64,000 nucleotides of DNA from Thermococcus aggregans (GTDB lineage: Archaea > Methanobacteriota_B > Thermococci > Thermococcales > Thermococcaceae). The stretch's first letter is position 1. Each line of letters begins with the position of its first letter. Both the position numbers and the translations under genes were made by a program. The notes beneath the pieces were generated by a model, which worked only from the letters and a program-made list of their open reading frames with translations, had not been told where the DNA came from and made no database searches. Below, one piece after another: positions 18,046 to 61,549 of the stretch. The stretch spans positions 186,001 to 250,000 of the forward strand of contig NZ_CP099582.1 of assembly GCF_024022995.1 (NCBI RefSeq). Direction: 5' to 3'.

Positions 18046-19326
18046 TTAAATCCTAACAACGTGGACTGAGCAAGAGATACAAGGATCATATGCTCTTGTA
18101 GTCATTTCGGCAAGAAGTTTAAGCCTTTCTGGATCGTCCTGCCAGTGCTTTTCTGCCATCATCCTAACATGGCGTTCCATGATTGCAAGGTTCATTGCTG
18201 TTGGTGTTATTATATCCGCATAGCTGACTCTTCCGTCTTTGACTTCAAGAGCATAAACGACCAATCCTCTTGGAGCTTCAGTTATGCTTACGCCAAATCC
18301 GTCCCTTATCTCAACCTCGTCTCTTTCTTTTATTGGCCACTTTGCGAGGGCCTCCTCAATGATGTCTATTGCTCTTTCCACAAAGTAGACAAGCTCAAGT
18401 GCTTGGGCAAAGTTGTTTGCAAAGCAGTTGTTGTACCTAAAGAGATCTTTGTACTGGTTGTAGAGTTCCTTTGCCTTTCCATAGAGAAGGTCAGCATTGT
18501 TCACTATTCTTGAAAGTGCACCTACCATAAAGGGCTTTCCTTTGTAGAATGAGTGCTTTGCAAAGCTGTGCTCCACGACTTTTTCGACTATATGCTTTTT
18601 GTACTCTTCCACAGGGAATTCGAAGCCATCGCTAACTTTAATATAATCTCCATAGATTCCATAGACGTCATTTCTCGGCTTTACTGCCATATGAACTATT
18701 TCATCATCGTTTACCTCTTCGTACTGTTCGAGCTTTGAGAAGAGCTCCACTGTGTATTCAGCCAAAGGCAGGGCTTCTTTAAGTTCTCTCTTCATTTCCT
18801 CAAACTGGGCTTTTGTTGGGAGTTTTCCAAAACCTCCAAGTATGGCATTCTCTTGGTGAATTGCCCTTGAACCGAGATAGTCCATTATTTTTGAGCCGAT
18901 GTTCTTAAGAGCCATCGCATATTCAATTTCTTTCTTGTATTTGTCCACCATTGCCAACGGATTTGAGTAGCCGAGATAATCGGGCAAGACAAGCAGGTAG
19001 AGATGCAGGGCATGACTCTCTATCATATCACCTATATAGAGCAAATCTCTCAGGTCTTGAATTTCAGGTCTTGGAGTAAAGCCCACAGCCTTTTCAGCCG
19101 CTTCCAGTGCCGTAAGCTTATGGGCCGCTGAACAGAATGAACAAATCCTCGGGTAGACCGCCAAGGCTTCTTCAAGCTTTTTACCGATTGTTATGGCCTC
19201 AAAGAAACGAGGCCCCTCTATGATGTTGAGCTTTACCTCCTTGACGCCCTCATCGCCGACAACTATCTCTACTCCACCCTTGCCCTCAACGCGCGCTATG
19301 TGATCAACTGTAATCGGAATATACAT
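18046..19326 (-). CDS. hydA: Cytosolic sulfhydrogenase I, alpha ([NiFe] large) subunit
   Basis: This is the catalytic subunit of the soluble NADP(H)-dependent hydrogenase (sulfhydrogenase), 426 residues. The four nickel-iron ligands are visible as C62/C65 in RICSFC and C416/C419 in DPCISC. The protein ends CSVH-VVRI, so processing after His422 would remove only four residues. Its start overlaps the hydD stop by one base and has GGAGGGAGAGTA upstream. Gene order hydB-G-D-A matches Pyrococcus SHI. Confidence 0.95.
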   Translation of the reverse strand: MYIPITVDHIARVEGKGGVEIVVGDEGVKEVKLNIIEGPRFFEAITIGKKLEEALAVYPRICSFCSAAHKLTALEAAEKAVGFTPRPEIQDLRDLLYIGDMIESHALHLYLLVLPDYLGYSNPLAMVDKYKKEIEYAMALKNIGSKIMDYLGSRAIHQENAILGGFGKLPTKAQFEEMKRELKEALPLAEYTVELFSKLEQYEEVNDDEIVHMAVKPRNDVYGIYGDYIKVSDGFEFPVEEYKKHIVEKVVEHSFAKHSFYKGKPFMVGALSRIVNNADLLYGKAKELYNQYKDLFRYNNCFANNFAQALELVYFVERAIDIIEEALAKWPIKERDEVEIRDGFGVSITEAPRGLVVYALEVKDGRVSYADIITPTAMNLAIMERHVRMMAEKHWQDDPERLKLLAEMTTRAYDPCISCSVHVVRI

Positions 19327-20114
19327 TACTCTCCCTCCTCAAATACCTTGTTAACCATTTCTTCCAGCTTTGGATTGTGAGCATTGAAAATTTTCATTCT
19401 CTCAAGTATTTCCTCTTTTGTAAGGCCCTTCTTCTTGAACTCCAATGCGAGTGCATCGAACCAAGCAACGTCGTAACCTACAGCACCTCTACACCCAATA
19501 CAAGCGACGTTAAATGCTGGGCACCGAGCATCGCAACCGGCAACTGTCACAGGGCCAAGGCATGGCTCTCCTTTTTCTATGAGGATACATGGGTTTCCTC
19601 TAATTCTGCATTCAACACATACCGGATAGTCTATGTCTTCAGGCCATGAACCTACCAATAAGGCACCCAAAGCGTAGAGGAAGTCCTTTTTCTCCGGCGG
19701 ACAACCATAAAGCTTGTAATCAACTTTAATGTATTTTTCCAGTGGCTCAGCCATCTTTGGTTCAAATTTGACGTGAGCGTCTCCATAAACAGTTTTCCAG
19801 AGTTCACTAAGCCCCTTATCTTTATCCCAGCTCTGCACTCCACCGTGAATGGCACATGAACCCACCGCTATGACTATTTTGGAGTTTTCCCTAATTTTTC
19901 TTACGAGCTCGACTTCCTCTTGAGTTGAAACACTCCCTTCGATAAATGCAATGTCAACTTCCTTATCCTCATCGCTATTGCGTTCGACCATAAACCAGCA
20001 CTCGATGTCGGCTTTATCAAGGAGCTGCAATATTTCATCCATCATAGCAAACTGGAGTTGGCAGCCATAGCATGAAGTGAGAGCATAAAACCCAATCTTA
20101 ATTTTCTCGCTCAT
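19326..20114 (-). CDS. hydD: Cytosolic sulfhydrogenase I, delta (small) subunit
   Basis: A 262-residue small subunit passing electrons from the NiFe site. The proximal [4Fe-4S] ligands are C15/C18 (TSCYGCQ) with GSCAIHGG and GCPPEKKD. Downstream cysteines in [27 protein letters not shown] and CIGCRG supply two further clusters. It lies between hydG and hydA with a GAGGTGACAAAAG site. Confidence 0.94.
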
Positions 20115-20125
20115 CTTTTGTCACC

Positions 20126-21016
20126 TCAGTCGAGCATTCCGGGTGTTGATACGATATCAAAGTACGTGAAGACGGGGCCGTCTTTACAGACGTACTTCCA
20201 TGAGGTGCTTGTTCCCACGTTACAGTGGCCGCACTTTCCTATTCCACACTTCATCATTCTCTCAAGCGTAACGTAGATGTTCTCCGGTCTGTAGCCATAG
20301 TTTATGAGAGCCTCAAAAACATCTTTGTACATTCTTGGAGGACCGCAGATTGCCACTGCTGTGTTCTTGGGGTTTGTATTTGCTTCTACTATGAAGTTCT
20401 GCGGCCTGCCTTTTGGTCCCGGCCAATCGGGATCTCTTGTGACACTCTGAATTATCTTAACGTTTTCAGCCTCCGCTATATCCTTCATAGCCTCAAGCTC
20501 CTTGTAGAAGAGAAGGTCCTTCCCATAGCGGGCAGTGTTTATGAAAGTTATGTTACCGTACTTCCAGCGGTTGTCCATCGCGTAGAGGAAGACACTCCTA
20601 AGGGGCGCAGTTCCAAGGCCCGCCGCTATTAAGAGCAGATCCATGCCTTCCCATTTGTCAACAGGGAAACCGTTTCCATATGGGCCCCTCACGAGTACGG
20701 TATCACCAGGCTTAAGCTTGTGGACTGCAGTAGTAACTCTTCCAGCTTTTCTGATACAGAGTTCAAAGAAACCTTGTCTCATGGGGGAGGAACATACACT
20801 AATCGGCACTTCCCCTATTCCTGGTATTGTAAGCTGGACAAACTGGCCCGGCTTAAATTTCCAGTTCTCTGCAATAGTTGGGTCTTCAAACCTAAATAGG
20901 AACAGCTTTTCTAACTCGGTGAGTTGATACACCCTAAGAACCCTAACTCTTTCTAGGGCATAGGGATTGTCCTCTGCAAAAGTATTGCTCCGAGGAACGG
21001 GTCTTGGGACGGTCAT
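20126..21016 (-). CDS. hydG: Cytosolic sulfhydrogenase I, gamma (FAD/NAD(P)-binding) subunit
   Basis: A 296-residue diaphorase-like subunit of the ferredoxin-NADP reductase superfamily. It has an FAD domain ([20 protein letters not shown]), an NAD(P) domain ([28 protein letters not shown]), and a C-terminal [2Fe-2S] site in [16 protein letters not shown]...C. It transfers electrons between NADP(H) and the Fe-S chain. The ATG overlaps the hydB stop by four bases. Confidence 0.94.
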
Positions 21017-22116
21017 TGTTCACCACCTCCAACAGATGAACCATGTGCAAATCCTCTCTTTGGAATCTCTTCCGAGATTCTCGGTGGACATGAGCTTTCC
21101 TCAAGACCCAAAATGGTTCTCAAATTCCTTACAAAGCTTATCTCCGCAGGGCAGAAGTACGAACACCTACCACATCCAACACAATAGCTGAGACCAAGTT
21201 TTTCAACATAGGAATTTTTGCACATATACCTATTCATAAACCTGGATTTCTTTGTCGGCCTAAAGTTGTGTCCACCTGTCACCATTCCATGCCTTACCAG
21301 CTGACAAGAATCCCATCTCCTAACTCTTGCCCCAGTAACGCCATCGATATTTGGGATATCTTGAACGTCAAAGCACCTGCAAGTCGGGCAGGTGGTATTG
21401 CAGTTACCACATCCCAAACAGAGTTCACTCTGCTCATCCCACATTGGGTGTTCAGTCTCAAGTTCAAGCAAGTACCTTAAGTCCGCCCAGTCCTCATGAT
21501 ACCTAAACATCTGCTGCTTTTTATTTTCAAAATCTCTAAAGTTGCACACATCCTGAGATGTTACTTCCTCAAAGAGAAGTAAGTTCTTATCAACTATCCT
21601 GTGACCAGTGGGAGTCGCAACACGGACAAGCCACCCATCGGGAAGTTCATGAAAGAATAAGTCGAAGCCATCGTCTGCAAAATCCGTCTCCCTTAAGTTA
21701 CAGAAACAATATTCATCTGGAACACAGCTAATGCCTATGATAATGCCTTTTTCCCTCCTAACCTTGTAATATTTGTCTGGAAGCTCGTCCAAGTATATGG
21801 TATCCATTATTTTAAGCCCGAAGATGTCACATGCGTGCACCCCAAAAACAACAAACGGCTCAACATCTTCAATAGCTTCCTTGTACTCTACCTTTGATAG
21901 ATTAAATTCAAACATTTTTTCCCTTGGCAGGAAGAAGAACTTTTTTGGTGGCATTATAGTTCTGTTGTAATGAAACTCTACATCTCTGACGTTTTCTATT
22001 TCTCTAAAATCATAGAATTTTTCAGAGATTTTTACGGGAGCATAGAGTGTTCCCCAGTCTTTTAATCGCTCTAAAAACTCATAAGTATTCTCCTTCGGTA
22101 GCTTAACATACCTCAA
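21013..22116 (-). CDS. hydB: Cytosolic sulfhydrogenase I, beta (Fe-S) subunit
   Basis: A 367-residue subunit with two [4Fe-4S] motifs near the C-terminus, [16 protein letters not shown] and [15 protein letters not shown], related to anaerobic sulfite reductase subunit A. It is the first gene of the hyd operon. I start it at TTG (22114-22116), giving [20 protein letters not shown], because GAGGTGATGGAA gives correct spacing there and the result matches the Pyrococcus HydB N-terminus as I remember it. The ATG two codons upstream sits directly on the ribosome-binding site. Confidence 0.92.
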
Positions 22117-22195
22117 TTCCATCACCTCGTTTTTATAAGTCCATGAACACTAACGGTTTATCTTGTACATTAAACACCAAATATAGTACTTCAAA

Positions 22196-22223
22196 GTCTA
22201 TAAAAAAGCGTCTATAAAAAAGC
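22196..22223. repeat. Two tandem 14-bp repeats over the hyd TATA region
   Basis: GTCTATAAAAAAGC occurs twice without spacer at 22196-22209 and 22210-22223. On the minus strand each copy contains a TATA-like TTTTTTATAGAC, so the hydB promoter may be doubled, or one copy may serve as a binding site. A further TATA-like ACTATATTT at 22180-22190 means the true start is uncertain. Confidence 0.7.
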
Positions 22224-22238
22224 TTTCTAAACCCTTAG

Positions 22239-22261
22239 TTTTCCAACCAAAGGTTTAGAAA
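22239..22261. promoter_or_regulatory. Candidate SurR operator in the hyd/fdh divergent promoter
   Basis: The sequence fits TTTn3AACn5GTTn3AAA. The known SurR site is GTTn3AACn5GTT, with an extended palindrome GTTn3AACn5GTTn3AAC. Both orientations match at 8 of 9 fixed bases and the AACn5GTT core is exact. It lies upstream of the hydB TATA region and about 12 bp upstream of the fdhA TATA. It is also nested in a 10-bp inverted repeat (22224-22233 and 22252-22261). SurR activates hyd genes in Pyrococcus when sulfur is absent. Confidence 0.6.
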
Positions 22262-22272
22262 ATTCTTAAAAA

Positions 22273-22285
22273 CTTTACATATATC
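22273..22285 (+). promoter_or_regulatory. TATA-like element for the fdhA operon
   Basis: TTTACATATATCT lies about 70-80 bp upstream of the fdhA ATG and would place the transcript start near 22308. No better TATA element exists on the plus strand of this gap, and the operon has no other obvious promoter. Confidence 0.45.
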
Positions 22286-22307
22286 TAGGTCAAGGGACAC
22301 TTATGAT

Positions 22308-22338
22308 CATGTGAACATAAATGTACATGTGTACATAA
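22308..22338 (+). repeat. Direct repeat and palindrome in the fdhA leader
   Basis: CATGTGAACATAA (22308-22320) is repeated as CATGTGTACATAA (22326-22338), 12 of 13 identical and 18 bp apart. The second copy lies within the perfect palindrome ATGTACA-TG-TGTACAT (22321-22336). It sits at or just after the predicted transcription start, before the fdhA ribosome-binding site, where a repressor or second activator could bind. Confidence 0.6.
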
Positions 22339-22352
22339 CTGGAGGGAAAGAT

Positions 22353-24266
22353 ATGCGGCTCATCACCTGCCCATACTGCGGAGCCGGGTGCAGGGCATAT
22401 GTGAAGAAAGAGCTATCTCGCCCGTTCATGATAGAGTACGTCACCGATATAAATGTTCCCAATGACCAAGGAAAGCTCTGCCCGAAAGGAAATGCCATGC
22501 TCGAACATATACTCAGCAAAGAAAGGCTAAAAGTCCCGTTGAAGGCCGTTGAAGAGGGAAAATTCGTAAAGATAAGCTGGAAGGAGGCAATAAATGAAAT
22601 CGCATCTTTTATTCGGGATCACATGAAGGACGACCCTAACAAGCTTATGTTCATCGCGGGAGGAAAGGTCAGCAACGAGTCCGCCTATCTTTTCCAGAAA
22701 CTCGCGAGGAGCATCGGGACGAACAACGTTGATAATACCAGCCACCTCTGCCACGGCGTATCCGTGAAGGCCATACTGGACGCAAACTTCGAAAGGAACT
22801 GGGCGATGTACGATGATATCGAAAAGAGCAATGTAGTAATCGTATGGGGGACTAACCTGGCCGAGACCGCCCCACTTATTTTCCGCAGGGTTCTAAAGGC
22901 CAAGAAGGGGGGCGCCAAAATCATAGTCATAGACCCGAGGAAAACCAAGACCACAAAGTTTGCCGGTATCCACGTCCGCCCGTTTCCGGGCACTGACATT
23001 GCGCTGATAAACGCACTCATCAATCTCCTGATGGAAAGGAGAAACGCAAGGAGCGCACACTTCACGGCATCCGATCTCAAAATAATCAGCAAGTACACGC
23101 CGGAGCGCGCCGAAAAAATAACCGGGGTGCCCGCGAGAGACATCGAGAAAATAGCCAGAGAAATTGCTCTTGCAGGAGAGGGCGTTATTTTGTGGGGCTC
23201 AGGCATCGCCCTCCACTCCAACGGCTATGACGTTATCAGGAGTATCATAACGCTCGCCTCAATGGTTGACTTCAAAGTCCTGCCGCTTGCTGGACAGAAC
23301 AACTCCCAGGGAGTCATGGACATGGGCGTGGTGCCCGACTTACTGCCCGGGTACAGGAGGTACGACGAGGTAGACTTCTTCAGGGAAGCATGGAAGAACG
23401 AGGGACTTCCAACTGAAGCCGGGCTCGACATTCCAAAATCAATCAAAGAGGCCCAAAAGTACAACGTTTCGGCGTTTTATATCATGGGAGCAAACATCGC
23501 GGTGAGCTTTCCGGAGGCCGAAAAGGCCCTAAAACGGGCAGAGTTTGTCGTTGCCCAGGACATATTCCCGACGCAGACAACGGAACTTGCCGATATCGTT
23601 CTCCCTGCGGCGGCGTTCCTTGAGAGCGACGGTTCTACAACGAACGCCGAGAGGAGAATCCAGTGGGGCTCCAGGGTAAAGTGGCCCCCGAAGGACGCCA
23701 AGCCGGACTGGGCCATCTTAAGAGAACTGGGAAATGTGCTTGAACTTGAGGGGTTTGACTTCTACTTCGCCGAGGAGATTCTCCGCGAAATAAGCACTCT
23801 CGTCCCCCAGTATGCAAACGCCAGCCCGCGCACTTTGATAAGAACGCCAGAGGGAGTTAGATGGAGCATGGAACCGCACTCCGGGCCCGTTAGGACGTAC
23901 ACTTCCGAGAGAATGCCCACCCTTGAGCCCCCGGTCATGATTACCGTCAGATACGTGGGCCAGTTCCAGACGGGAACTATGACCAAGAGAAGCCCCTCAC
24001 TGAACGTCATGTGGCAAGACCTGCCCATCCTGGTAAGCGAGGAAGACGCCCAGAAGTGGGGGATAAAAGATGGCGACAGGGTCAGGCTCGTCTCAGAGAA
24101 CGGGGAGTACATAGGAACAGTGAAGGTGTCCAAGACGGTCATTCCCGGCACAATCAAAGCCCCCTGGCACGAGGGTGCCAACCGCATAATGGGCCTGGAG
24201 ATTGATGAGGAAACAGGTCTGCCCCAGATGAAAGCATGTTCATGCAAACTTGAGAGGGTGGAGTGA
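22353..24266 (+). CDS. fdhA: Formate dehydrogenase catalytic subunit (Mo/W-bis-PGD)
   Basis: A 637-residue enzyme that oxidises formate to CO2 and passes electrons to its Fe-S partner. The N-terminal [4Fe-4S] site is C6/C9/C13 (CPYCGAGC) plus C43 (CPKG). The metal ligand position is Cys133 followed by His134 (SHLCHGVSV), so this is a cysteine and not a selenocysteine enzyme. The MGD-binding C-terminal domain is around WGIKDGDRVRLVSENGEYIG. The start at 22353 has GGAGGG 6-7 nt upstream. The gene leads the 19-gene cluster and is visibly GC-richer than the flanks. Confidence 0.94.
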   Translation: MRLITCPYCGAGCRAYVKKELSRPFMIEYVTDINVPNDQGKLCPKGNAMLEHILSKERLKVPLKAVEEGKFVKISWKEAINEIASFIRDHMKDDPNKLMFIAGGKVSNESAYLFQKLARSIGTNNVDNTSHLCHGVSVKAILDANFERNWAMYDDIEKSNVVIVWGTNLAETAPLIFRRVLKAKKGGAKIIVIDPRKTKTTKFAGIHVRPFPGTDIALINALINLLMERRNARSAHFTASDLKIISKYTPERAEKITGVPARDIEKIAREIALAGEGVILWGSGIALHSNGYDVIRSIITLASMVDFKVLPLAGQNNSQGVMDMGVVPDLLPGYRRYDEVDFFREAWKNEGLPTEAGLDIPKSIKEAQKYNVSAFYIMGANIAVSFPEAEKALKRAEFVVAQDIFPTQTTELADIVLPAAAFLESDGSTTNAERRIQWGSRVKWPPKDAKPDWAILRELGNVLELEGFDFYFAEEILREISTLVPQYANASPRTLIRTPEGVRWSMEPHSGPVRTYTSERMPTLEPPVMITVRYVGQFQTGTMTKRSPSLNVMWQDLPILVSEEDAQKWGIKDGDRVRLVSENGEYIGTVKVSKTVIPGTIKAPWHEGANRIMGLEIDEETGLPQMKACSCKLERVE

Positions 24267-24267
24267 T

Positions 24268-24765
24268 ATGGGGAAGAGGGTCTTTATCGACTTTAGGAAC
24301 TGCATAGGGTGCAGGGCCTGCGAGATTGCCTGCGCCAGGGAGCACCACGGGAAGGCCAACATCACTCTCATCGAGACATCGGAACTGCTCATGATGTCCT
24401 TTAACTGCAGGCACTGTGAAAACGCCCCCTGTATGCTGGTCTGCCCAGCCAGGGCGCTCTACCGGGACGAAGACGGGGCCGTGCGCGTTAAGGCCCAGGA
24501 CTGCATAGGCTGTATGTTCTGTTCTATTGCATGTCCCTTCGGCATGCCGGAGTTCGTCCCCGAGCTGAAAATTATGGTCAAGTGCGACCTCTGCAGTCAC
24601 CGCAGGGATGAGGGGAAGCTCCCCGCATGTGTGACGACCTGCCCGACCGATGCACTGATTTTCGCCAGCGAGGAGGAGATATTCCAGATAAAGGTCAAAC
24701 AGAACCTTGCCAAGGTTGAGGAGCTCGCCAAGAAGGTTGAAAAGATAATGGGGGGAACCGTATGA
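24268..24765 (+). CDS. fdhB: Formate dehydrogenase 4x[4Fe-4S] electron-transfer subunit
   Basis: A 165-residue polyferredoxin of the HycB/FdhB type. Four cysteine clusters are visible: CIGCRACEIAC, CRHCENAPCMLVCP, CIGCMFCSIACP and CDLCSHRR...CVTTCP. It carries electrons from FdhA to the membrane hydrogenase. The ATG at 24268 follows GGAGTGAT, 2 bp after the fdhA stop. A frame extension upstream lies within fdhA. Confidence 0.92.
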   Translation: MGKRVFIDFRNCIGCRACEIACAREHHGKANITLIETSELLMMSFNCRHCENAPCMLVCPARALYRDEDGAVRVKAQDCIGCMFCSIACPFGMPEFVPELKIMVKCDLCSHRRDEGKLPACVTTCPTDALIFASEEEIFQIKVKQNLAKVEELAKKVEKIMGGTV

Positions 24766-26186
24766 TATTCGAGCTCATCGCGCTTTCAATAATCCTCGCG
24801 TATGCCGGTGCAGTCTGCTTCGCCCTAGATGACAAAAAGGCAGACGCCGTAATGCTCCCCCTCCTCTGGGCCTCGACGGCCCTCCAGGTGGCCGCTGGCG
24901 TCCTGTTCTACTCGTCCCCCTCGACGATTCATGTGAAACTGATGGTGTTAGAGAGCTTTGGAGAGATATATGGCTTCATAATTGACCCGACGAGCGTGTT
25001 CACGGCCCTGGTGGTTTCCTCTGCGGGTGCAATATTCCTGACGTACGCGGTCAGGTATATGGACGACAAAAACATTGGTCACCCCCACAGGGGCCAGAAG
25101 GGAAGGTTCTACGGGTGGATGATGATATTCCTCGGCTCAACGCTCACGTTCATATACTCATCCACGATACTGCAGATGCTGATATTCTTCGAGCTGATGA
25201 GCCTAGCGTGTTGGGGTGTCGTTGGGTTCTACGGAAGCAAGAAATCGGAAAGGTCTGCCCTCAAGGCCCTCCTGATACCGAACTTCGGTGCAGTTGTGGG
25301 TTTCTACACCGCGGTGGCGTTCGGGTTCAAGTACGGTGACCTCAGCCTGAAGTTCCTCGGCAGCCTGCCCGGAAACGAGAAGCTGATTCTGTTCGTCTGC
25401 CTTATGATTGCGGCCTTTACAAAGAGCGCCCAGTTCCCGTTCTACTCGTGGATTCCTGATGCTATGGTGGCCCCAACTCCTGCGAGTGCCTTCCTTCACG
25501 GAGCGGCGATGGTCGAGATGGGTGTCTACCTTCTGGTAAGGGTCGTCCAGTTCATGAACCCGCCCAGAGAGGCATTCTACCCGATGGCGGCGATCCTGTC
25601 CCTGACGCTGGTGATAGCAATCCTCGCGTATCCCAAGCAGACCGACGCCAAGAGGCTGCTCGCCTACTCAACGATAGCCGAGTGTGCCATAATGTATACA
25701 GGAGTTGCGGCTGCCGTCCTCGGTCACCCCGTCGGGATTAAAATCGCGCTGTTCCAGCTCATGAACCACGCCTACCTCAAGGGCCTCGCGTTCCTCACCG
25801 CGGGAGCCTTCACATACTACTACGGCACCCTGGACATGACGAAGATAAGGGGCCTCAAGGAGACCCCGATACTTGCATACGGCTGGGCCATAGGGCTCCT
25901 CGGGCTCGCGGGACTGCCGCCGTTCGGCATTTTCTTCAGCAAGCTCTACCTCTTCCTTAACGCCGGCCCCCTGTACAGCTCCCCGCTCGGTGCACTGCTG
26001 CTGATCCTAATCCTTGCGGACTCAGTCGTACTGCTGGCGGTCGGCCTTAGGAGCATCAACATGATGGTGTTCAGCGATGGAGAAGGAAAGAAAGTTGACG
26101 GCATCGTAAAGGGCGCACTGGCCGGGCTGATACTCCTCTCCCTGGTCTCGGCATACATCGGGTACTTCGCCCTGGGGGTGATGTGA
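24762..26186 (+). CDS. Antiporter-like membrane subunit of formate hydrogenlyase (NuoN/MrpD family)
   Basis: A 474-residue membrane protein with about 14 hydrophobic helices. The antiporter-like features are present: a buried Glu in FFELMSLACWGVVGFY, a Lys in FTKSAQFPFYSWIPDAM, and the APTPASAFLHGAAMVEMGVY helix. It is expected to move H+ or Na+ when electrons flow to the hydrogenase. The start overlaps fdhB by four bases. It is one of three such subunits in the cluster (with 26187 and 34390). Confidence 0.9.
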   Translation: MIFELIALSIILAYAGAVCFALDDKKADAVMLPLLWASTALQVAAGVLFYSSPSTIHVKLMVLESFGEIYGFIIDPTSVFTALVVSSAGAIFLTYAVRYMDDKNIGHPHRGQKGRFYGWMMIFLGSTLTFIYSSTILQMLIFFELMSLACWGVVGFYGSKKSERSALKALLIPNFGAVVGFYTAVAFGFKYGDLSLKFLGSLPGNEKLILFVCLMIAAFTKSAQFPFYSWIPDAMVAPTPASAFLHGAAMVEMGVYLLVRVVQFMNPPREAFYPMAAILSLTLVIAILAYPKQTDAKRLLAYSTIAECAIMYTGVAAAVLGHPVGIKIALFQLMNHAYLKGLAFLTAGAFTYYYGTLDMTKIRGLKETPILAYGWAIGLLGLAGLPPFGIFFSKLYLFLNAGPLYSSPLGALLLILILADSVVLLAVGLRSINMMVFSDGEGKKVDGIVKGALAGLILLSLVSAYIGYFALGVM

Positions 26187-27998
26187 ATGCTGTTCGCAGT
26201 CCTCTTCACCATCGCGATCATAATCGGACTTGTCAGGCGGGAACAGGTCAAAGCAGTTGGGTTACTGTCCGCCCTGGCCTCTTTGGCCCTGATAGTCGAG
26301 GCGTTCAACGGCATCAGTGCTACTTACTCCATTTTCGGGCTTGAGTTCACCTTCATGACCGACACCCTGTCGAGGTTCTTCTGCATACTCGTGGGAATCT
26401 CGGGTTTCGCGGTTTCACTCTACACCACTGAATACATGGAGCCGAGGCACCTGAACCTCGCCGCTTACCCGGCTTTCATACTCTCAATGGCGCTCATAGT
26501 GCTCAGCAGGGACTTCCTTGGGTTCATAATATTCTGGGAGCTCATGACAATAGCCTCCTACGTGCTGATAGTCACGTACTACGACAACCCAGAGACCAAG
26601 AGGGCGAGCCTCATCTACCTCGTTGCAATGCACGCCTTCAACACGGCACCGCTCCTCCTCGCGATAGGTGCCATCTACAGCAATTTCGGAACCCTCAGCT
26701 TCTCCGCCCTGCAGGGGGCCTACGTGCCGACCTGGGTACTCTGGGCGTTCCTGATTGGCTTCATGTCAAAGGCGGGCATATTCCCCATACACTTCTGGCT
26801 CCCGGAGGCACACCCCGTCGCTCCAAGCAACGTGTCCGCACTCCTGAGCGGTACGATGCTGAAGATGGCCATCTACGGTATGATAAGGGTCGTCGAGCTG
26901 TTCCCGGGAAGCGAGGCAATCGCTAGGACGATGGTCGTGCTCGCAATACTCACGATAGCAATTGGAGCAATAATGGCTCTTGTCCAGAAGGACATAAAGA
27001 GGCTCATGGCATATTCGAGTGTGGACAACATGGGCTACCTGTTCCTGGCGCTCGGAGCCTACATAATGCTGGACGGAACCCTCAAGAAAATCGCTTTCCT
27101 TGCCCTACTGCTCCACGCCTTCAACCACCTCGTCTTTAAGAACCTGCTCTTCATGCTTTCGGGCAACGTGCTCCACGCAACGGGCAGGAAAGACCTTGAG
27201 CTGAGGGGCCTTGGAAAGAAAATGCCCTTCACCGCGGCGATGATGGTTGTGGGGATCCTCTCGGTGTCCGCGGTTCCCCCGTTAAACGGCTTCATAAGCA
27301 AGTGGCTGATATACCAGGCAACGTTCCTGTCAAAGGACCCCCTGCTGGTAGGGGGAGGAGTTGTAAGCCTGTTCGCGAGCGCATTAACTCTGGCCGCCTA
27401 CATCAAGATATACCGCATCTTCAGGGAAGAGCCCAACGTTGAGGCCCACGAGGCAACCCCGCTCATGCTCGCGGGGGAGGCCCTCCTTGCAATCCTGTGT
27501 GTGGCCGCTGGAATATTCCCCGGCGCGATAGCCGGGCTGACAGGGATTGACGTCGGAAACCCGTGGCTGATTTCGCTTGGTGGGACGACTTTCAACGCAC
27601 TGCTCTTTGCGGGAGTGTTGTTCTCAATCATAATCGCGGTAGCAATAGCCCTGCCCACAAAGAAGAACCTGGACGCCCCATGGACCACGGGCGAGCCAGC
27701 TGAGAAGTTCGAGCAGAGGCCCGAGCACATGTTCGCTCCAATCGCAAGGTGGGGTGAGAAACTCGGCTTACTCGGCAGAAAGATCGAGGAGAAGCTCTCG
27801 GCCTTCGAAAGGTGGTACTCCTCCAGGGACATGGGATACCTCGACGAGATGGTGTTCATGCCTGTAATCAGGCTGATGGCAGGGACTTCCTACGTGATAA
27901 GGGAGCTGTCCAAGAACCTGAACGCCCTGCTCGCGGTGACGTTCCTGGTGCTGTTCACGATAATCCTAACTATGGCCGTACTTGTGGGGGTGATCTGA
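26187..27998 (+). CDS. Hydrogenase-4 subunit B-like antiporter subunit (HyfB/HycC, NuoL family)
   Basis: A 603-residue NuoL/HyfB-type protein with key residues in FWELMTIASYVLIVTY (Glu) and MSKAGIFPIHFWLPEAHPVA (Lys/His). There are further helices after LMAYSSVDNMGYLFLALGAY and a C-terminal extension ending in a last hydrophobic helix. By analogy to HycC/HyfB it sits at the junction of the antiporter and hydrogenase arms. It starts directly at the previous stop codon with GGGGGTGATGTGA upstream. Confidence 0.92.
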   Translation: MLFAVLFTIAIIIGLVRREQVKAVGLLSALASLALIVEAFNGISATYSIFGLEFTFMTDTLSRFFCILVGISGFAVSLYTTEYMEPRHLNLAAYPAFILSMALIVLSRDFLGFIIFWELMTIASYVLIVTYYDNPETKRASLIYLVAMHAFNTAPLLLAIGAIYSNFGTLSFSALQGAYVPTWVLWAFLIGFMSKAGIFPIHFWLPEAHPVAPSNVSALLSGTMLKMAIYGMIRVVELFPGSEAIARTMVVLAILTIAIGAIMALVQKDIKRLMAYSSVDNMGYLFLALGAYIMLDGTLKKIAFLALLLHAFNHLVFKNLLFMLSGNVLHATGRKDLELRGLGKKMPFTAAMMVVGILSVSAVPPLNGFISKWLIYQATFLSKDPLLVGGGVVSLFASALTLAAYIKIYRIFREEPNVEAHEATPLMLAGEALLAILCVAAGIFPGAIAGLTGIDVGNPWLISLGGTTFNALLFAGVLFSIIIAVAIALPTKKNLDAPWTTGEPAEKFEQRPEHMFAPIARWGEKLGLLGRKIEEKLSAFERWYSSRDMGYLDEMVFMPVIRLMAGTSYVIRELSKNLNALLAVTFLVLFTIILTMAVLVGVI

Positions 27999-27999
27999 G

Positions 28000-28872
28000 A
28001 TGGAACTCATCGGAGCAATCATCGCGCCATTTTTACCTCCATTATTAGATGGGATTGCGAGGAAAGTGAGGGCCATGATACAGAACAGGGTAGGGCCCTC
28101 GATTTTCCAGACGTGGTACGACATAATAACGCTCCTCTCAATGGACTCAATACTCCCAACGTCATCGCTCGCTTTCAGGCTGGCCCCCTACCTCGCGCTC
28201 GCGAGTGCCCTCTGCATGGCCCTCATGCTGCCCTACGGGTCAGACGCGATAATAAACTTCGGGGGAGACCTGATAGCGTTCATATACGTCTTCACACTGT
28301 TTTCCGCGGCCCTGGTGTTTGGAGCCCTGAGCGTGGACAACTCGTACTCACACGCGGGTGCCAACAGAGAGCTAACGCTCTCGCTGGTATTCAAGCCACT
28401 CTTCGCGATTACGATAGGCATATTCGCCCTCAAGACGGGCTCGCTGAGCATAACCGAGATCGCCCACTCGGTATCCCCGAGCATCTCAATCATCGGGGCC
28501 TACCTGCTGCTCCTCTACGTTACCTACGTGGAGTCTGGGTTCATACCCTACGACATTGCCGAGGCGGAGACGGAAATCCTGGAAGGACCCCTCACAGAGT
28601 ACAGTGGCAGGCTTCTCGGCCTGCTCAAGTGGGCACTCCAGATAAAGAGGTTCGCGATGATATGGCTGTTCGCATCTTTTGTGGCCCTCCCGGTGGCGGA
28701 AGGGGCCATCGCCTTCGTCCTCCAGTTGCTGGTATTTCTGCTCACTTACCTGCTGATGGTGACCTACGAGTCCCTGAACGCCCGCTACAGGCTCGACCAG
28801 GCAACGAAGCAGGGAGTTAAGGGCATCGTTATCGGAGTGATACTCATGATAATCGCATGGCTGGGATGGTGA
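28000..28872 (+). CDS. Membrane hydrogenase subunit, NuoH/HycD family
   Basis: A 290-residue protein with about eight hydrophobic helices, the subunit that anchors the soluble hydrogenase arm in complex I-like enzymes. It has the RKVRAMIQNRVGPSIFQTWY motif near the N-terminus and the acidic loop FIPYDIAEAETEILEGPLTE, a quinone-site relic thought to connect redox chemistry to ion transfer. The ribosome-binding site is GGGGGTGATCTGAG. Confidence 0.94.
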   Translation: MELIGAIIAPFLPPLLDGIARKVRAMIQNRVGPSIFQTWYDIITLLSMDSILPTSSLAFRLAPYLALASALCMALMLPYGSDAIINFGGDLIAFIYVFTLFSAALVFGALSVDNSYSHAGANRELTLSLVFKPLFAITIGIFALKTGSLSITEIAHSVSPSISIIGAYLLLLYVTYVESGFIPYDIAEAETEILEGPLTEYSGRLLGLLKWALQIKRFAMIWLFASFVALPVAEGAIAFVLQLLVFLLTYLLMVTYESLNARYRLDQATKQGVKGIVIGVILMIIAWLGW

Positions 28873-28876
28873 GACT

Positions 28877-30517
28877 ATGATAAGGGAGTTTGAAGAAAAA
28901 TTTGGCTCGACGCTTGAGAAAAAGGTCATCGCAAAGAACAAAGTGCTTTACACGCTGATGGTGAGAAGAGAGGACTTCACCGACATAATCAACTACATCC
29001 TCAGCAGGCCGAACACTAGGCTCTTCACGATGGTCGGAATGGACGAGAGGAACACCGAAGAGGCCTTCAGCGTGACCTACTGGTTCCTTGACTGGAAGGA
29101 TCAGGAAGTCATCGGAGTAAGGCTCTACGTTCCGGAAGATGAGCCCTACTTCCCCAGCGTCGGTGCTTTCCACAAGGGGGCAATATGGTTCGAGAGAGAG
29201 GTCCAGGACTTGCTGGGCCTGAAGGCGGAGGGGCTTCCAGACCCAAGAAGGCTTATACTCCCTGACGACTGGCCAGAGGGAGTTTACCCGCTGAGGGAGG
29301 ACTTCCAGTACTGCCACTCCCCAGCCGGAACGAGGAACTACCCCTACAAGGAGCCGCCCGAAGACTCTACGGTGCACCCGATGGGGCCGTACCACGTCGC
29401 GCTGGACGAGCCGGCGCACTTCAGGCTCTTCGTTAAGGGTGAGGAAATAGTTGACGTGGACTACCGCGGCTTCTACTCCCACAGGGGCATAGAAAAGCTC
29501 GCAAGGGGAAGGCTGAACTACAACCAGATCATATTTATCGCGGAGAGGATATGTGGTATATGCGGATTCTCCCACTCCGTAGCGTACGCCCAGGCCGTTG
29601 AGGAGGCAGCTGGAATTGAAGTGCCGGACAGGGCGAGGTACATCAGGACGATACTCCTTGAGATTGAGAGGCTGCACTCCCACCTCCTCTGGCTGGGCGT
29701 CGCGGCCCACCTGACAGGCTTTGACACGGCCTTTATGCGCTCGTGGGAGATTAGGGAGCAGGTCATGGAGCTCGCCGAGAGGCTCACCGGCAACAGGAAA
29801 ACGTACGGCCTTGTTCTCGTTGGCGGAGTCAGGAGAGACCTCCTAGACTACAGAAAGTCCCTGATTCTTGAGACTCTCAAGAACCTGAGGAGAGAGTTCG
29901 ACGAGCTCGTTGACATGCTCGTATCAACGAAGAGCTTCGTAAAGAGGTGCGAGGGCGTCGGTGTGCTCCCGAAGGAGAAAGCGAGGGAGTGGGACACCGC
30001 CGGCCCCCTGGCAAGGGCTTCTGGAATTGACTATGACACGAGAAAGGGCCTCCCCTACGCGGCATACGATGAGCTGAGCTTTGACGTCCCCGTCTACAAG
30101 GAGGGAGACGTCCTGGCAAGGGCCCTCGTGAGGATTGACGAAGTGAGGGAGAGCATCTCCCTGCTGGAGCAGGCGGTTGACGCTATTCCCGGCGGCCCCG
30201 TGATGGCGGAGTTCAACGAAGTCCCAAGCTGGAGAGAGGGCATATCGGCCGTTGAAGCCCCGAGGGGAGAGAACACCCACTACGTGATGACAGGGGAGGT
30301 AAACAGAATCTACAGGTGGAGGGTGAAGGCGCCGACGTACAACAACCTCCAGGCAGTTCCGGACATGCTGAGAGGCTACACAATAGCCGATGCCCCGCTG
30401 ATAGTGGCCTCGATAGACCCCTGCTACTCGTGTACCGAGAGGGTTCAGGTCGTCGACGTGGAGTCAGGAAAGGCGAAGGTAATCTCACTGGGCGGGGGGA
30501 TAGGGGCATGCCCGTGA
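28877..30517 (+). CDS. [NiFe]-hydrogenase large subunit with fused NuoC domain (HycE-like)
   Basis: A 546-residue NuoC-NuoD fusion, residues about 1-150 and 165-546, joined near HPMGPYHVALDEPAHFRLFV. The NiFe ligands are C226/C229 (RICGICGFSH) and C516/C519 (DPCYSCTER), so it is a true hydrogenase. A 24-residue tail follows Arg522. HycE is cut after the equivalent Arg, so a maturation endopeptidase is required. It produces H2 from electrons supplied by FdhAB. Confidence 0.94.
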   Translation: MIREFEEKFGSTLEKKVIAKNKVLYTLMVRREDFTDIINYILSRPNTRLFTMVGMDERNTEEAFSVTYWFLDWKDQEVIGVRLYVPEDEPYFPSVGAFHKGAIWFEREVQDLLGLKAEGLPDPRRLILPDDWPEGVYPLREDFQYCHSPAGTRNYPYKEPPEDSTVHPMGPYHVALDEPAHFRLFVKGEEIVDVDYRGFYSHRGIEKLARGRLNYNQIIFIAERICGICGFSHSVAYAQAVEEAAGIEVPDRARYIRTILLEIERLHSHLLWLGVAAHLTGFDTAFMRSWEIREQVMELAERLTGNRKTYGLVLVGGVRRDLLDYRKSLILETLKNLRREFDELVDMLVSTKSFVKRCEGVGVLPKEKAREWDTAGPLARASGIDYDTRKGLPYAAYDELSFDVPVYKEGDVLARALVRIDEVRESISLLEQAVDAIPGGPVMAEFNEVPSWREGISAVEAPRGENTHYVMTGEVNRIYRWRVKAPTYNNLQAVPDMLRGYTIADAPLIVASIDPCYSCTERVQVVDVESGKAKVISLGGGIGACP

Positions 30518-31005
30518 CAAAGTACTATCCCTTCGAGCCGGAGCAGGCGCCGCCGGAATACAGGGGGATCCCGGAGATAGACCCGCGCCTGTGCGTGGGA
30601 TGCGGTGCATGTGTGAACGCCTGCCCACCTGACGCGCTGATCAAGATAGATGACTACGAGAAGGGGACGAGAAAGATAGTCCTCGACATCGGCAGGTGCA
30701 TAAGGTGTGCGAGGTGCGAGGAGGTCTGTCCGACCGGAGCGATAAGGTTAACGCAGGAATTCGAGGCGGCGAGCGACGACAGAAGCTCTCACGTGGAGGT
30801 AGTGGAGCTGAGACTCGCAAGGTGCAGGAACTGTGGAGAGTACACCGACTACACCGAGAGACAGCTCCAGAAAGTCCTCTCAGTGATACCTCCCGGCATC
30901 GTTGAGTTCGACAGGGTGAGAGAGAAGCTCCCGCTCTGCAGGAAATGTAAGAGGCTCCTGACGGTTGTTAACGCCACAAAGTTCGAGGAGGAGATGAGGG
31001 AATGA
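30508..31005 (+). CDS. Hydrogenase ferredoxin-like subunit (NuoI/HyfH family)
   Basis: A 165-residue protein with two [4Fe-4S] motifs, CVGCGACVNACPPDAL and CIRCARCEEVCPTGAI. A later CRNCGEY plus CRKCKRLL may form a zinc or extra metal site. It carries electrons to the NuoB-like subunit. The start MPVTKYYPFEPEQAPPEYRG at 30508 overlaps the large subunit by 10 nt after a GGGGGGATAGGGG stretch. The longer frame upstream is a shadow of the large subunit gene. Confidence 0.9.
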   Translation: MPVTKYYPFEPEQAPPEYRGIPEIDPRLCVGCGACVNACPPDALIKIDDYEKGTRKIVLDIGRCIRCARCEEVCPTGAIRLTQEFEAASDDRSSHVEVVELRLARCRNCGEYTDYTERQLQKVLSVIPPGIVEFDRVREKLPLCRKCKRLLTVVNATKFEEEMRE

Positions 31006-31772
31006 AGCTCAGGTCCGTTTGGGTCTTTCACCTCAACACAGGGGCGTGCAACGGCTGTGACATAGAGATACTCGACGTCCTCACCCCCTACTACGACGTC
31101 GAAAGGCTTGGTGTCAAGCTCGTCTCAACTCCCAGACACGCTCACGCCTTACTGGTCACCGGGCCTCTAACAAGGCAGTCCTACTATGCCGCCAAGAGGG
31201 CCTACGAGGCAATGCCCCCCAAGCCAAGGATAGTCATCGCCATAGGCACCTGTGCCTGCAGCGGCGGAATCTTCTACAACAGCTACGCCGTAAGGCGGGA
31301 GTCAGAAAGGCTTGGACTGGAGTACCCGAGGGCCGGGGGAACTTCTGAGTTCCTGCCGGTGGACGTGTATATTCCAGGGTGCCCGCCAAGGCCAGAGGAG
31401 ATACTCTACGGGCTTGCGCTCCTGCTCGGGATTGCCGAGAAGAAGCTGTCACCGCGCCACTACAGGGAGGAAGAGTTCGTCCTCCCGCGCACCCAGTTCA
31501 AGGCATGGGTTGAGGTAATCCTCAAGGCGAGGATCAGGAAGGAGCTCGGCTACTTCGACGGTTACAAGCTCCTTGAGAGGTTCATGGAGCTCGTGGACGT
31601 TGCAGAGACGCCGGAAGCCCTCAAGAGGCTTGTCGAAGAAGAGAAACTCAAAGAAAAGGACAGCCGGCTCAGGTACGGACTGGATAAGCTCTATGAGTAC
31701 TACCTAGAGGTGGTGAGGACGTATGAGGATATACTTAGTCAGAAAAGGAGGGTACTTAGAGTTCAAAAATGA
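31002..31772 (+). CDS. [NiFe]-hydrogenase small subunit (NuoB/HycG family) with C-terminal extension
   Basis: A 256-residue subunit holding the proximal [4Fe-4S] cluster: NTGACNGCDIE, GTCACSGG and PGCPPRPEE supply the four cysteines. The family core ends near residue 155. The remaining roughly 95 residues are charged and predicted helical (YFDGYKLLERFMELVDVAET, SRLRYGLDKLYEYYLEVVRT), longer than in HycG. The ATG overlaps the NuoI-like gene by four bases. Confidence 0.92.
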   Translation: MKLRSVWVFHLNTGACNGCDIEILDVLTPYYDVERLGVKLVSTPRHAHALLVTGPLTRQSYYAAKRAYEAMPPKPRIVIAIGTCACSGGIFYNSYAVRRESERLGLEYPRAGGTSEFLPVDVYIPGCPPRPEEILYGLALLLGIAEKKLSPRHYREEEFVLPRTQFKAWVEVILKARIRKELGYFDGYKLLERFMELVDVAETPEALKRLVEEEKLKEKDSRLRYGLDKLYEYYLEVVRTYEDILSQKRRVLRVQK

Positions 31773-31974
31773 CGTTGCACGGGTGCTCGATCACTTCGAG
31801 TCCAACTTTTCAACCGAGGAAATCGTTGGAGAGGTCGGCGAGAGGAGTGCGGAGCTGGTCGAGAAGGGTGTGACGGATATAGACGCCTACCCGGAAGAGG
31901 ATAGGAAGACGATAGCCAGACTGCTTCCCGAGATAGAGAGGGGCCTCATAGCAGTGAGGAGGGTCTTTAGATGA
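31723..31974 (+). CDS. Small protein of the formate hydrogenlyase cluster, function unknown
   Basis: An 83-residue acidic, soluble and likely helical protein (VARVLDHFESNFSTEEIVGE, EEDRKTIARLLPEIERGL). I recognise no domain. It overlaps the NuoB-like gene by 50 nt in another frame and its stop overlaps the mnhF ATG by four bases, so it is firmly within the operon. The start could be further downstream, but no better ribosome-binding site is seen. It sits at the junction of the hydrogenase and Mrp modules. Confidence 0.7.
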   Translation: MRIYLVRKGGYLEFKNDVARVLDHFESNFSTEEIVGEVGERSAELVEKGVTDIDAYPEEDRKTIARLLPEIERGLIAVRRVFR

Positions 31975-32240
31975 TTGAGACGGCAATTTACATACTGTTT
32001 GCGGTTTACGGGCTCTCAGGCCTGCTCTACTTCATCAGGCTACTCAGGGGGCCAACCGTGGTGGACTCAATCCTTGCCGCGGACTGTGTGTCCCTCGATG
32101 TCGCGCTGATAGCGCTGCTCCTGTCAATCTACTACAGGAACTCGTTCCTGGCGGTCGGAGCACTGTTCCTGGTGCTCTGGGCGTTCATCCTGGACGTGTT
32201 CGCGGCCAAATACCTCACGAGAGGGGAGGTGGGAACTTGA
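31971..32240 (+). CDS. mnhF: Mrp-type antiporter subunit F
   Basis: An 89-residue MrpF/MnhF-like protein with three hydrophobic helices and the family segment LLRGPTVVDSILAADCVSLD. It opens the Mrp Na+/H+ antiporter module. Four-base overlap with the preceding gene. Confidence 0.9.
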   Translation: MIETAIYILFAVYGLSGLLYFIRLLRGPTVVDSILAADCVSLDVALIALLLSIYYRNSFLAVGALFLVLWAFILDVFAAKYLTRGEVGT

Positions 32241-32569
32241 TACTCACGGTCATCGGGCTTATACTCCTCGCCATAGGCGCAGTCTGCGACCTCCTCGGTG
32301 CGATAGGAATGCACCGGTTTAACACGTTCTACCTCAGACTGCACGCCGCGACCGTCGGCACCGTTGGAGGAAAGTTCTACCCGCTCCTCGGAGTGGCGTT
32401 TATAGCGGCGGAGCAGGGCCTGTGGCCCGTGGTCGGAATCTCGGTACTTGCGGCGCTCCTCGTCCTGGTCACGACCCCCGTGGGAAGCCACGCACTCGCC
32501 TACGCCGCGAGCAAGGCCAGGATAGTGGAGATTAAGCTCGACGAATTTAGGGGGGAGGAAGATGTTTGA
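32237..32569 (+). CDS. mnhG: Mrp-type antiporter subunit G
   Basis: A 110-residue MrpG/MnhG-like protein with three helices and the motif GAIGMHRFNTFYLRLHAATV. The start codon is TTG at 32237, with GGAGGTGG 4 nt upstream, and it overlaps the mnhF stop. Confidence 0.9.
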   Translation: MILTVIGLILLAIGAVCDLLGAIGMHRFNTFYLRLHAATVGTVGGKFYPLLGVAFIAAEQGLWPVVGISVLAALLVLVTTPVGSHALAYAASKARIVEIKLDEFRGEEDV

Positions 32570-32804
32570 GCTGGCGGCGGTTTTCCTCCTGTGCGCAGTG
32601 GCCCTCAGCTACCTCATAGTCACCGAGACAGACCTGCTGAAGGCAGTCGCATATTCTGGCGTCTTCGGGGGACTCATACTGCTGACGCTGTACGTTCTGA
32701 TGGCCCCTGACGTAATCCTCGCGTACGTTGCGATATCCGTGGGACTATCCACCGGCCTTATGGTGTTCGTGGTAAGCAAAACGACGAGACACGAGGTGGT
32801 CTGA
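32562..32804 (+). CDS. MbhD-like (DUF4040) membrane subunit
   Basis: An 80-residue three-helix protein (ELAAVFLLCAVALSYLIV, AVAYSGVFGGLILLTLYVLM, VILAYVAISVGLSTGLMVFV) matching the small MbhD/MrpA-C-terminal type subunit. GGGGGGAGGAAG precedes its ATG, and it overlaps mnhG by 8 nt. Confidence 0.82.
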   Translation: MFELAAVFLLCAVALSYLIVTETDLLKAVAYSGVFGGLILLTLYVLMAPDVILAYVAISVGLSTGLMVFVVSKTTRHEVV

Positions 32805-32805
32805 A

Positions 32806-33528
32806 GTGAGGAAGGTCATCACGCTCTCCCTCATCATGCTGGCGGTCATAGCGGGGGCGTACTACCTCTCCCCACACCTGGTCCCCAAGACGGAGCTGAA
32901 CGCGCTTGGTGAGTTTTACATCAGAAACAGCTACTTCGGGGAGCACTCCGCCGGTTCGCCCGAAGTCATAACTGCAATCCTCTGGGACTACAGGGGCCTT
33001 GACACGTACTTTGAGACCGCCGTCCTGTTCATGGCAATAATCGGCGCGGTCTCAATCTTCAGGAACATGCCCAGCGTGAGCTTCCACCCGCGCGGCTTCA
33101 CCGACATCACCAGAACCGGAGTGAAGATAGTCGGACTCATTACCTTCGTAGCGGCCGCCACGACCGCGTTCCACGGACACATAACGCCCGGAGGTGGCTT
33201 CCAGGGCGGTTCAATGCTCGCCGTGGTGCCCCTGCTGGTGATAGTTGCGTTCTCCAAGAAGGCCCTTGAGAAGGCTGGGCTCACCAAGGAGAGGGCCCTC
33301 GTCATTAGGACGATAGGCCTCCTCACAATAGCCATCGTCGCGTTCTACCCCCTCCTCGCGGGAGGCTACTTCATGCAGAACCTGCCGGTGTACCCGAAGG
33401 AGCTCCACGGAATGCTCGTCAGCGGAAGCCTGTCCCTCTTCAACATGGCGGAGTTCCTGGCGGTTGGAGCAGGGTTCACGATAATATTCCTGCTCCTTTC
33501 AAACCCTGAGGGGGGGAGCGAAGCATGA
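32806..33528 (+). CDS. mnhB: MrpB-type antiporter subunit with fused MbhE-like N-terminus
   Basis: A 240-residue membrane protein. Residues about 1-90 (one signal-like helix, ITAILWDYRGLDTYFETAVL, and a second helix) resemble MbhE. Residues about 100-240 (FHGHITPGGGFQGGSMLAVV, then four helices) are the MrpB/MnhB domain. In Mbh these are separate genes. The start codon is GTG at 32806 with GAGGTGGTCTGAA upstream. Confidence 0.85.
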   Translation: MRKVITLSLIMLAVIAGAYYLSPHLVPKTELNALGEFYIRNSYFGEHSAGSPEVITAILWDYRGLDTYFETAVLFMAIIGAVSIFRNMPSVSFHPRGFTDITRTGVKIVGLITFVAAATTAFHGHITPGGGFQGGSMLAVVPLLVIVAFSKKALEKAGLTKERALVIRTIGLLTIAIVAFYPLLAGGYFMQNLPVYPKELHGMLVSGSLSLFNMAEFLAVGAGFTIIFLLLSNPEGGSEA

Positions 33529-33902
33529 CGTTTGCCCTCGCGCTGATAGTGAGCAGCATAGCCGCGATCATCGTAATCTCACTCTACGGCGTAGCCGTGA
33601 GGCCAAACCTCGTGAAGAAGATAATCTGCCTCGGCATATTCTCCGACATCATCAACGTGGCCGTCATACTGCTCGGCTACCGCGCCGTCGAGAGGCCCCT
33701 CCCTCCGGTGCTCACAGACTACTCGCAGAAGGGCGTTGAGGAGCTCGTTAGGGGGGCCGTTGACCCGCTTCCGCAGGCCCTCACCATCACCGCGATAGTC
33801 ATTGGCCTGGCAATAACCGTGCTCATGGCCTACGGTGCTATCCATATCCAGAGGAAGTACGGCACCGTGGACGTTAGAAAGCTCGCGAGGTGGGAGGAAT
33901 GA
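33525..33902 (+). CDS. mnhC: Mrp-type antiporter subunit C
   Basis: A 125-residue MrpC/NuoK-like protein with three helices. The sequence LVKKIICLGIFSDIINVAVI and the segment VDPLPQALTITAIVIGLAIT are typical. An extracellular-type loop after YRAVERPLPPVLTDY is present. Four-base overlap with mnhB. Confidence 0.9.
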   Translation: MTFALALIVSSIAAIIVISLYGVAVRPNLVKKIICLGIFSDIINVAVILLGYRAVERPLPPVLTDYSQKGVEELVRGAVDPLPQALTITAIVIGLAITVLMAYGAIHIQRKYGTVDVRKLARWEE

Positions 33903-34384
33903 GGTTCCTGCCGGTGACCCTGCTCGCGTTCATACTGTACATCATAATAACCGGCTCGGCCACTCTGTACGACATCGCAACGGGGGCAGTAACAGCGGTC
34001 ATTGCGGGCCTGCTCTTCGGTAAATACCTCGTGAAAAACCCCAAGAAAGCCCTCAACCCGGCAAGATGGGTTGCCATGGTGGCCTACTTCATCAAGTACA
34101 TCACGGTGATCGAGCTCAAGGCCCACCTGGACGTCATAAAGCGCATAATATCCGGCGAGACGAACCCGGGCATCATCAAGGTCCCCATCACCGTGAAGGA
34201 CGAGTACGCCAAGTTCCTGGTCGCCAACTCGATAACGAACACCCCAGGCACCGTAACGGTGTACATGGACGAGGAATACGCCTACGTCAACTGGATAGAC
34301 GTGAAGACGAGAGAGCCAGACGAGGCCAGGAAGGAAATCCTTGAGGAGTTCGAAAAACACGCGAAGAGGATTTTTGAGGGGTGA
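33899..34384 (+). CDS. mnhE: Mrp-type antiporter subunit E
   Basis: A 161-residue MrpE/MnhE-like protein: an N-terminal hydrophobic region followed by the soluble domain with NPGIIKVPITVKDEYAKFLV and SITNTPGTVTVYMDEEYAYV, the standard MrpE signature. The ATG at 33899 overlaps the mnhC stop and follows GAGGTGGGAGGA. Confidence 0.9.
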   Translation: MRFLPVTLLAFILYIIITGSATLYDIATGAVTAVIAGLLFGKYLVKNPKKALNPARWVAMVAYFIKYITVIELKAHLDVIKRIISGETNPGIIKVPITVKDEYAKFLVANSITNTPGTVTVYMDEEYAYVNWIDVKTREPDEARKEILEEFEKHAKRIFEG

Positions 34385-34389
34385 TCCAG

Positions 34390-35931: not shown

Positions 35932-35932
35932 A

Positions 35933-38953: not shown

Positions 38954-38967
38954 ATTTTGAAGTGAGG

Positions 38968-61502: not shown

Positions 61503-61516
61503 CATTAACTTTTTAA
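61503..61516 (+). promoter_or_regulatory. TATA-like element for nsr
   Basis: CATTAACTTTTTAA, about 35-45 bp before the ATG at 61550, is the best TATA candidate. It lies just 5' of the SurR-like site. Confidence 0.5.
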
Positions 61517-61522
61517 CCTTAA

Positions 61523-61539
61523 GTTTACAACCTTTCTTT
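61523..61539 (+). promoter_or_regulatory. Candidate SurR operator at nsr
   Basis: GTTTACAACCTTTCTTT fits GTTn3AACn5GTT at 8 of 9 fixed bases (last triplet TTT). It lies between the TATA and the start codon, where bound SurR would block transcription. NSR-type genes are known SurR-repressed, sulfur-induced targets in Pyrococcus. Confidence 0.6.
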
Positions 61540-61549
61540 GGTGATGCTT

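Follow-up and report, generated by a model that had tools for sequence, protein, structure and literature searches.

The window, a 64,000-nucleotide stretch of Thermococcus aggregans DNA, carries two divergent operons that are separated by a single spacer of 227 bp. On the minus strand, hydB (21013..22125; NCBIfam sulfhyd_HydB above cut-off) is the first gene of the soluble hydrogenase (SHI) operon, which continues with hydG (20126-21016), a third gene (19326-20114) and hydA (18046-19326). HydG and HydA were also matched by their NCBIfam families above cut-off. On the plus strand, fdhA (22353..24266; NCBIfam and Pfam matches) is the first gene of the formate hydrogenlyase (FHL) operon at about 22353-37838, which further encodes an FdhB-like Fe-S protein, antiporter-like subunits, [NiFe] large and small subunits and Mnh-type subunits.

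The putative composite operator and the two promoters

The sequence TTTTCCAACCAAAGGTTTAGAAA (22239-22261) locates in the spacer between hydB (start at 22125, minus strand) and fdhA (ATG at 22353, plus strand). It agrees with 8 of the 9 fixed positions of GTTn3AACn5GTT, both on the plus strand (22239-22255) and on the minus strand (22261-22245). The initial annotation had described this 23-mer as a near-palindrome with 8/9 matches in both directions and an exact AACn5GTT core. That description stands, but a second core at 22230-22240 had been overlooked, and the true unit is 22224-22261. This composite near-palindrome, TTTCTAAACCCTTAGTTTTCCAACCAAAGGTTTAGAAA (22224..22261, no strand), was delimited from the sequence, its symmetry and the alignment of five FHL genomes. 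It is self-complementary at 30 of 38 positions, which makes it the top 38-bp palindrome of the window, and it holds two AACn5GTT cores 15 bp apart and three 8/9 SurR matches within 38 bp. The core at 22245..22255 (AACCAAAGGTT/AACCTTTGGTT, no strand), identified by conservation and a weight matrix, is the distal SurR-type core for hydB and the proximal one for fdhA. The core at 22230..22240 (AACCCTTAGTT/AACTAAGGGTT, no strand), recognised from FHL genomes and SHI promoters, is proximal for hydB and distal for fdhA.

A candidate hyd TATA box, CTTTTTTATA (22213..22222, minus strand), is conserved in position together with CTTTTTTA across 72 SHI promoters, and a BRE-like TAGAAAG (22229-22223, minus strand) lies ahead of it. 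On the other side, a candidate fdh TATA box, CTTAAAAA (22265..22272, plus strand), contains a CTTAAAA that is kept in all five FHL spacers, and it is preceded by the BRE-like TAGAAAAT (22256-22263, plus strand). The proximal cores are 7 nt (hyd side) and 9 nt (fdh side) from these candidate TATA boxes. The cores on both sides are thus upstream of BRE/TATA, which is the position of an activator, and the earlier placement of the site upstream of the TATA elements of both operons agrees with these candidates. Another fdh TATA candidate, TTACATATA at about 22276-22284, was discarded for want of conservation in two of the FHL genomes (G018 and G036).

The exact canonical SurR motif (GTTn3AAC or GTTn3AACn5GTT) is absent from 22239-22261, where the outer GTT reads TTT in both orientations. 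Under the broader SurR-type definition, an AACn5GTT core with preference for AACCnnnGGTT, AACCAAAGGTT is an exact match. Because the outer GTT is absent, 22224-22261 is classed as a putative SurR-type variant operator and not as a canonical site.

Several other features were observed around the two promoters. A 14-bp tandem duplication at 22197-22223 (TCTATAAAAAAGCG), whose second copy is one base short, provides the hyd promoter with two TATA boxes; the other four FHL genomes do not have this duplication, and it may add or shift a start site. The fdhA leader contains conserved, partly palindromic stretches at 22292-22338 (TGTGAACATAAATGTACATGTGTACAT), and TGTACA and GTTCA words like those of this leader also occur in hydB leaders. 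Many hydB leaders of genus g4 (among L073-L128) have a short conserved upstream ATG frame at about -31 of hydB (e.g. MSTCIFMFIGGG), which extends out of frame into the hydB start and is absent from the FHL genomes.

Chance level and conservation

The window contains 12 AACn5GTT sequences (16.0 expected) and 17 copies of GTTn3AACn5GTT with one mismatch (13.8 expected). Genome-wide, the one-mismatch long motif occurs 445 times versus 577 times for the reversed control, and TTTn3AACn5GTTn3AAA occurs at 2 places versus 3 for the control. At least one 8/9 site was found in 14% of dinucleotide-shuffled spacers. An 8/9 motif match taken alone is at chance level, and bare motif counts were rejected as evidence. 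Three 8/9 sites within 38 bp were found in only 3 of 10,000 shuffled spacers (0.03%) and never in 60 shuffled windows, and the palindrome quality of the 38-bp unit was attained by 0.1% of shuffled spacers. The sole other stretch of the window with this three-site density is 61509-61539, just before a CoA-disulfide/NAD(P)H sulfur reductase gene.

HydB was detected in 83 of 94 Thermococcales genomes, and the comparison covered the DNA upstream of 74 SHI copies. The hydB-side core and its TATA spacing are kept in 72 of these 74 promoters across Thermococcales, so the search of related genomes for a conserved site, proposed in the initial annotation as a check, gave a positive answer. In those 72, an AACn5GTT core at -103 to -131 from the hydB start is followed by a GGGTTT half-site at fixed spacing and by CTTTTTTA, and the core is 24 bp upstream of the hyd TATA box. 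The two exceptions are L110, without the module, and L109, with CACCTTTGGTT. L110 (genome G073) has lost the core-TATA module upstream of hydB, and this naturally occurring deletion could be used as a control. The flanks outside the module are variable, so the module behaves like a footprint. The GGGTT half of the 22230-22240 core is kept in nearly all SHI promoters, and the outer GTT is mostly absent from them (G in 22 of 73 aligned rows). Nine of the 72 aligned SHI promoters carry an exact GTTn3AACn5GTT at the same place, which makes the core in the window an ortholog of canonical SurR motifs.

The element is counted as beyond chance because it forms a 38-bp double-core near-palindrome and because the hydB-side core and TATA spacing are conserved. 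A chance match, or an extended core-promoter (BRE/TATA) sequence without a regulator, would fit the 14% of shuffled spacers with a single 8/9 match, the genome-wide counts that do not exceed the control, and the TATA-adjacent GGGTTTA half, which could be an extended BRE. It is nevertheless a most improbable explanation in view of the clustering, the conserved core 24 bp upstream of TATA and an independent weight-matrix rank (see below), and a site of similar quality before an MFS gene is not conserved.

FdhA of the type found in the window is present in 5 of 94 genomes, and in all five it is divergent from hydB over one spacer, the arrangement of a Group 3 fhl/sh locus. The operator region can be aligned in all five FHL spacers, and both promoters have the order core, 4 bp, core, TAGAAA, TATA. 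GTTn3AAC was found at the operator site in none of the five. The 22230-22240 core is an exact AACn5GTT in 4 of 5 FHL genomes versus 1 of 68 others, kinship being ignored in this comparison; the imperfect one is in G076 (AGC). An insertion of 31 bp gives G018 and G036 four cores and a full module per promoter, with an imperfect fdh-proximal core in G018. The hydB-side core was found with or without adjacent formate genes. At seven further loci (L086, L089, L091, L095, L097, L099 and L123), hydB is divergent from the gene of a different formate dehydrogenase, whose FdhA is about 42% identical. A second AACn5GTT core, nearer to the formate dehydrogenase start, is present at those seven loci and resembles the SHI module.

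SurR and other candidate SurR sites in the genome

The genome encodes a SurR ortholog of 231 aa (L145:764-1459, minus strand), divergent from pdo. Its best PDB match is PF0095 (2QLZ, E 5e-89), and the CxxC of the redox switch is kept (LTCTECYF). In this genome, mbh, mbs, hypF, surR/pdo, trxR and sulfur reductase (nsr) are preceded by canonical long motifs. The names mbh, mbs and hypF were assigned using family matches together with gene order or translation, and targets of this kind are those expected of SurR. Among 30 surR promoters, GTTnnnAACC is present in all 30 and AACCnnnGGTT in 29. The AACCAAAGGTT core also occurs in the promoter of surR itself and in nsr promoters, and AACCTTTGGTT occurs in many nsr promoters.

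A weight matrix was built from surR and nsr promoter sites, excluding all SHI sites and the nsr site of this genome, and was used to rank the window and selected loci. Among about 128,000 positions of the window, 22245-22261 (minus strand) ranked second and 22239-22255 (plus strand) third. The first rank went to a canonical comparison site outside the operator, GTTGTAAACTTAAGGTT (61515..61531, minus strand; also found by pattern), which lies immediately ahead of the CoA-disulfide/sulfur reductase gene (61538-62872, assigned by its family) in a repressor position. The canonical site before the sulfur reductase gene is conserved in the 20 relatives examined.

Two other genes with a canonical long SurR motif may be SurR targets: an FmdE-domain gene, with the motif at its start (G000:C1:527321, L134), and an acetate-CoA ligase alpha-subunit gene, with the motif before it (G000:C1:1586801, L149). 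A SurR-like near-palindrome of similar motif quality at 38962-38984 overlaps the region just before the MFS transporter gene at the end of the FHL operon. It was rejected as a further SurR target, since in G076 and G077 the gene is kept beside FHL and the site is not.

The AACCnnnGGTT sequence could in principle be recognised by a regulator other than SurR, given that most SHI promoters lack the outer GTT and that part of the SHI sulfur response is left in a partial surR deletion of T. barophilus (PMC12162507). This is very unlikely, as the core equals those of the surR and nsr promoters and the exact long SurR motif occupies the same place in nine orthologous promoters. The SurR-like identity proposed in the initial annotation is thus favoured by the exact canonical orthologous promoters, the surR/nsr core, the independent weight matrix and the presence of a CxxC SurR gene.

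Proposed shared sulfur control, locus history and known systems

Judged from these sequence comparisons, the operator is very probably a SurR docking site through which sulfur would turn off both operons together. SurR control is highly likely for hydB and, with somewhat less confidence, likely for fdhA; that 22224-22261 acts as a bidirectional SurR-type operator, placing hyd and fdh-mhy under common sulfur control, is a well-favoured reading. Each promoter would read the same module, consisting of distal core, 4 bp, proximal core, TAGAAA BRE and TATA, and the distal core of one promoter would be the proximal core of the other. Without sulfur, reduced SurR would bind immediately upstream of each BRE/TATA element, activating both operons. 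With sulfur, the CxxC pair of SurR would be oxidised, SurR would be released and both operons would fall. We infer the SurR occupancy of the operator, the activation in both directions and the release by sulfur.

Published sulfur responses bear on both operons. In T. litoralis, a 2008 study (PMC2432063) reports that RNA and protein of the fdh-mhy operon, which is beside hyh-1, decrease with sulfur on peptide medium, that expression on maltose is already low and sulfur-independent, and that the operon is also regulated by peptides. The primers of that study match exactly in 13 of 13 cases in G077, versus 1, 2 and 6 in three other FHL genomes tested; judged by these matches, G077 appears to be the T. 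litoralis strain used. The G077 spacer has the same operator as the window. In T. barophilus, partial deletion of surR lowered SHI, sulfur represses SHI, and only altered SurR motifs are listed for it (PMC12162507). In the same deletion strain, shI still fell with 0.5 g/L sulfur, and there may be a further input to SHI besides SurR. The published coordinates of the T. barophilus SHI correspond to the HydB match in G086, whose promoter (L071) has CATTTTAACCTTTGGTT. As this SurR-dependent promoter has CATTTTAACCTTTGGTT, the outer GTT seems dispensable. In T. onnurineus, sulfur has the contrary effect and raises the Fdh1/Mhy I proteins (PMC4463584).

SurR may instead serve hydB only, with the fdh promoter merely abutting the site and the FHL sulfur response being indirect or going through a peptide-responsive regulator. 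The hydB-side core is kept with or without FHL, so its presence by fdhA needs no FHL function, and the FHL of T. litoralis is reported to respond to peptides and to show no sulfur effect on maltose (PMC2432063). Against this stand the flank and second core turned into a mirror in FHL genomes only (4/5 versus 1/68, kinship ignored), the conserved fdh TATA spacing that mirrors the hyd side, the extra fdh-side cores in G018 and G036, and the lowering of FHL RNA and protein by sulfur in T. litoralis (PMC2432063). We therefore regard control of hydB only as unlikely. Two results favour the joint control of hyd and FHL suggested in the initial annotation, namely the mirroring of the module in the FHL genomes and the T. 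litoralis repression (PMC2432063); the missing sulfur effect on maltose and the regulation of the operon by peptides count against it.

The initial annotation also took the formate system as probably acquired, and the HydB tree agrees with this. HydB of G018 and G036 (genus g4) is nested inside genus g1 with strong support. The FdhA proteins of these two genomes are 85-92% identical to that of the window, and their SurR is 63% identical, like that of other g4 genomes. The nesting, together with these identities, indicates that the SHI-FHL block with its operator probably moved between genera, in one direction or the other and whatever the origin of FHL itself. In G081, a close relative by HydB, FHL is absent from the short contig and so is the mirrored second core. 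Whether SHI-FHL is a self-wired cassette that crosses genera, its mirrored operator travelling with both operons, is more doubtful, and we propose it only tentatively. If this were true, an acquired FHL would at once come under the SurR of the recipient, in step with the soluble hydrogenase, and the doubled operator in G018 and G036 would give each promoter its own core pair. It would be a possible route for tying a horizontally moving energy-conserving operon to the redox switch of the host.

The shared operator would be a candidate mechanism for the sulfur repression of FHL measured in T. litoralis in 2008. The T. litoralis fdh-mhy/hyh-1 locus is alike in its orthologous operon and spacer and in the down-regulation by sulfur measured on peptides; it differs in its description, as the available part of the report speaks of a typical archaeal promoter but of no regulator, and neither SurR nor the operator is named in it (PMC2432063).

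Holden and Sistu (2023) defined Group 3 as divergent fhl/sh and reported the SurR sequence in no Group 2-4 promoter (PMC10025317). The present locus is similar to their Group 3 in its opposite transcription from one spacer and in an operon without a formate transporter gene. In contrast to the survey, which reported no SurR sequence, a conserved variant was found here. The negative holds here too under the exact motif, and conservation shows that this motif is too strict for these promoters, to which the earlier negative can be ascribed; the statement of SurR-free fhl/sh promoters would be revised accordingly. For nfd promoters of the arrangement seen at the seven loci with the other formate dehydrogenase, the survey likewise reported no SurR sequence, and a second core is present there.

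Compared with the published SurR motif, GTTn3AAC(n5GTT) (PMC12162507, PMC8595942, PMC10025317), the operator has the same AACn5GTT core and the same activator position upstream of BRE/TATA, and as at published sites its core is that of SurR's own promoter and its targets belong to H2 metabolism. It differs by the outer TTT in place of GTT and by two mirrored cores for two promoters. The SurR search motif can thus be widened, since SHI promoters keep the AACCnnnGGTT core and the proximal GGGTTTA half but not the outer GTT, and scans that demand GTTn3AAC would miss a real target class. The divergent surR/pdo spacer, in which a canonical site was found in this genome, is similar in having two SurR sites common to divergent genes. 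Its sites, however, are canonical and its genes are regulated oppositely in the cited model, whereas both operons would be activated from the operator described here.
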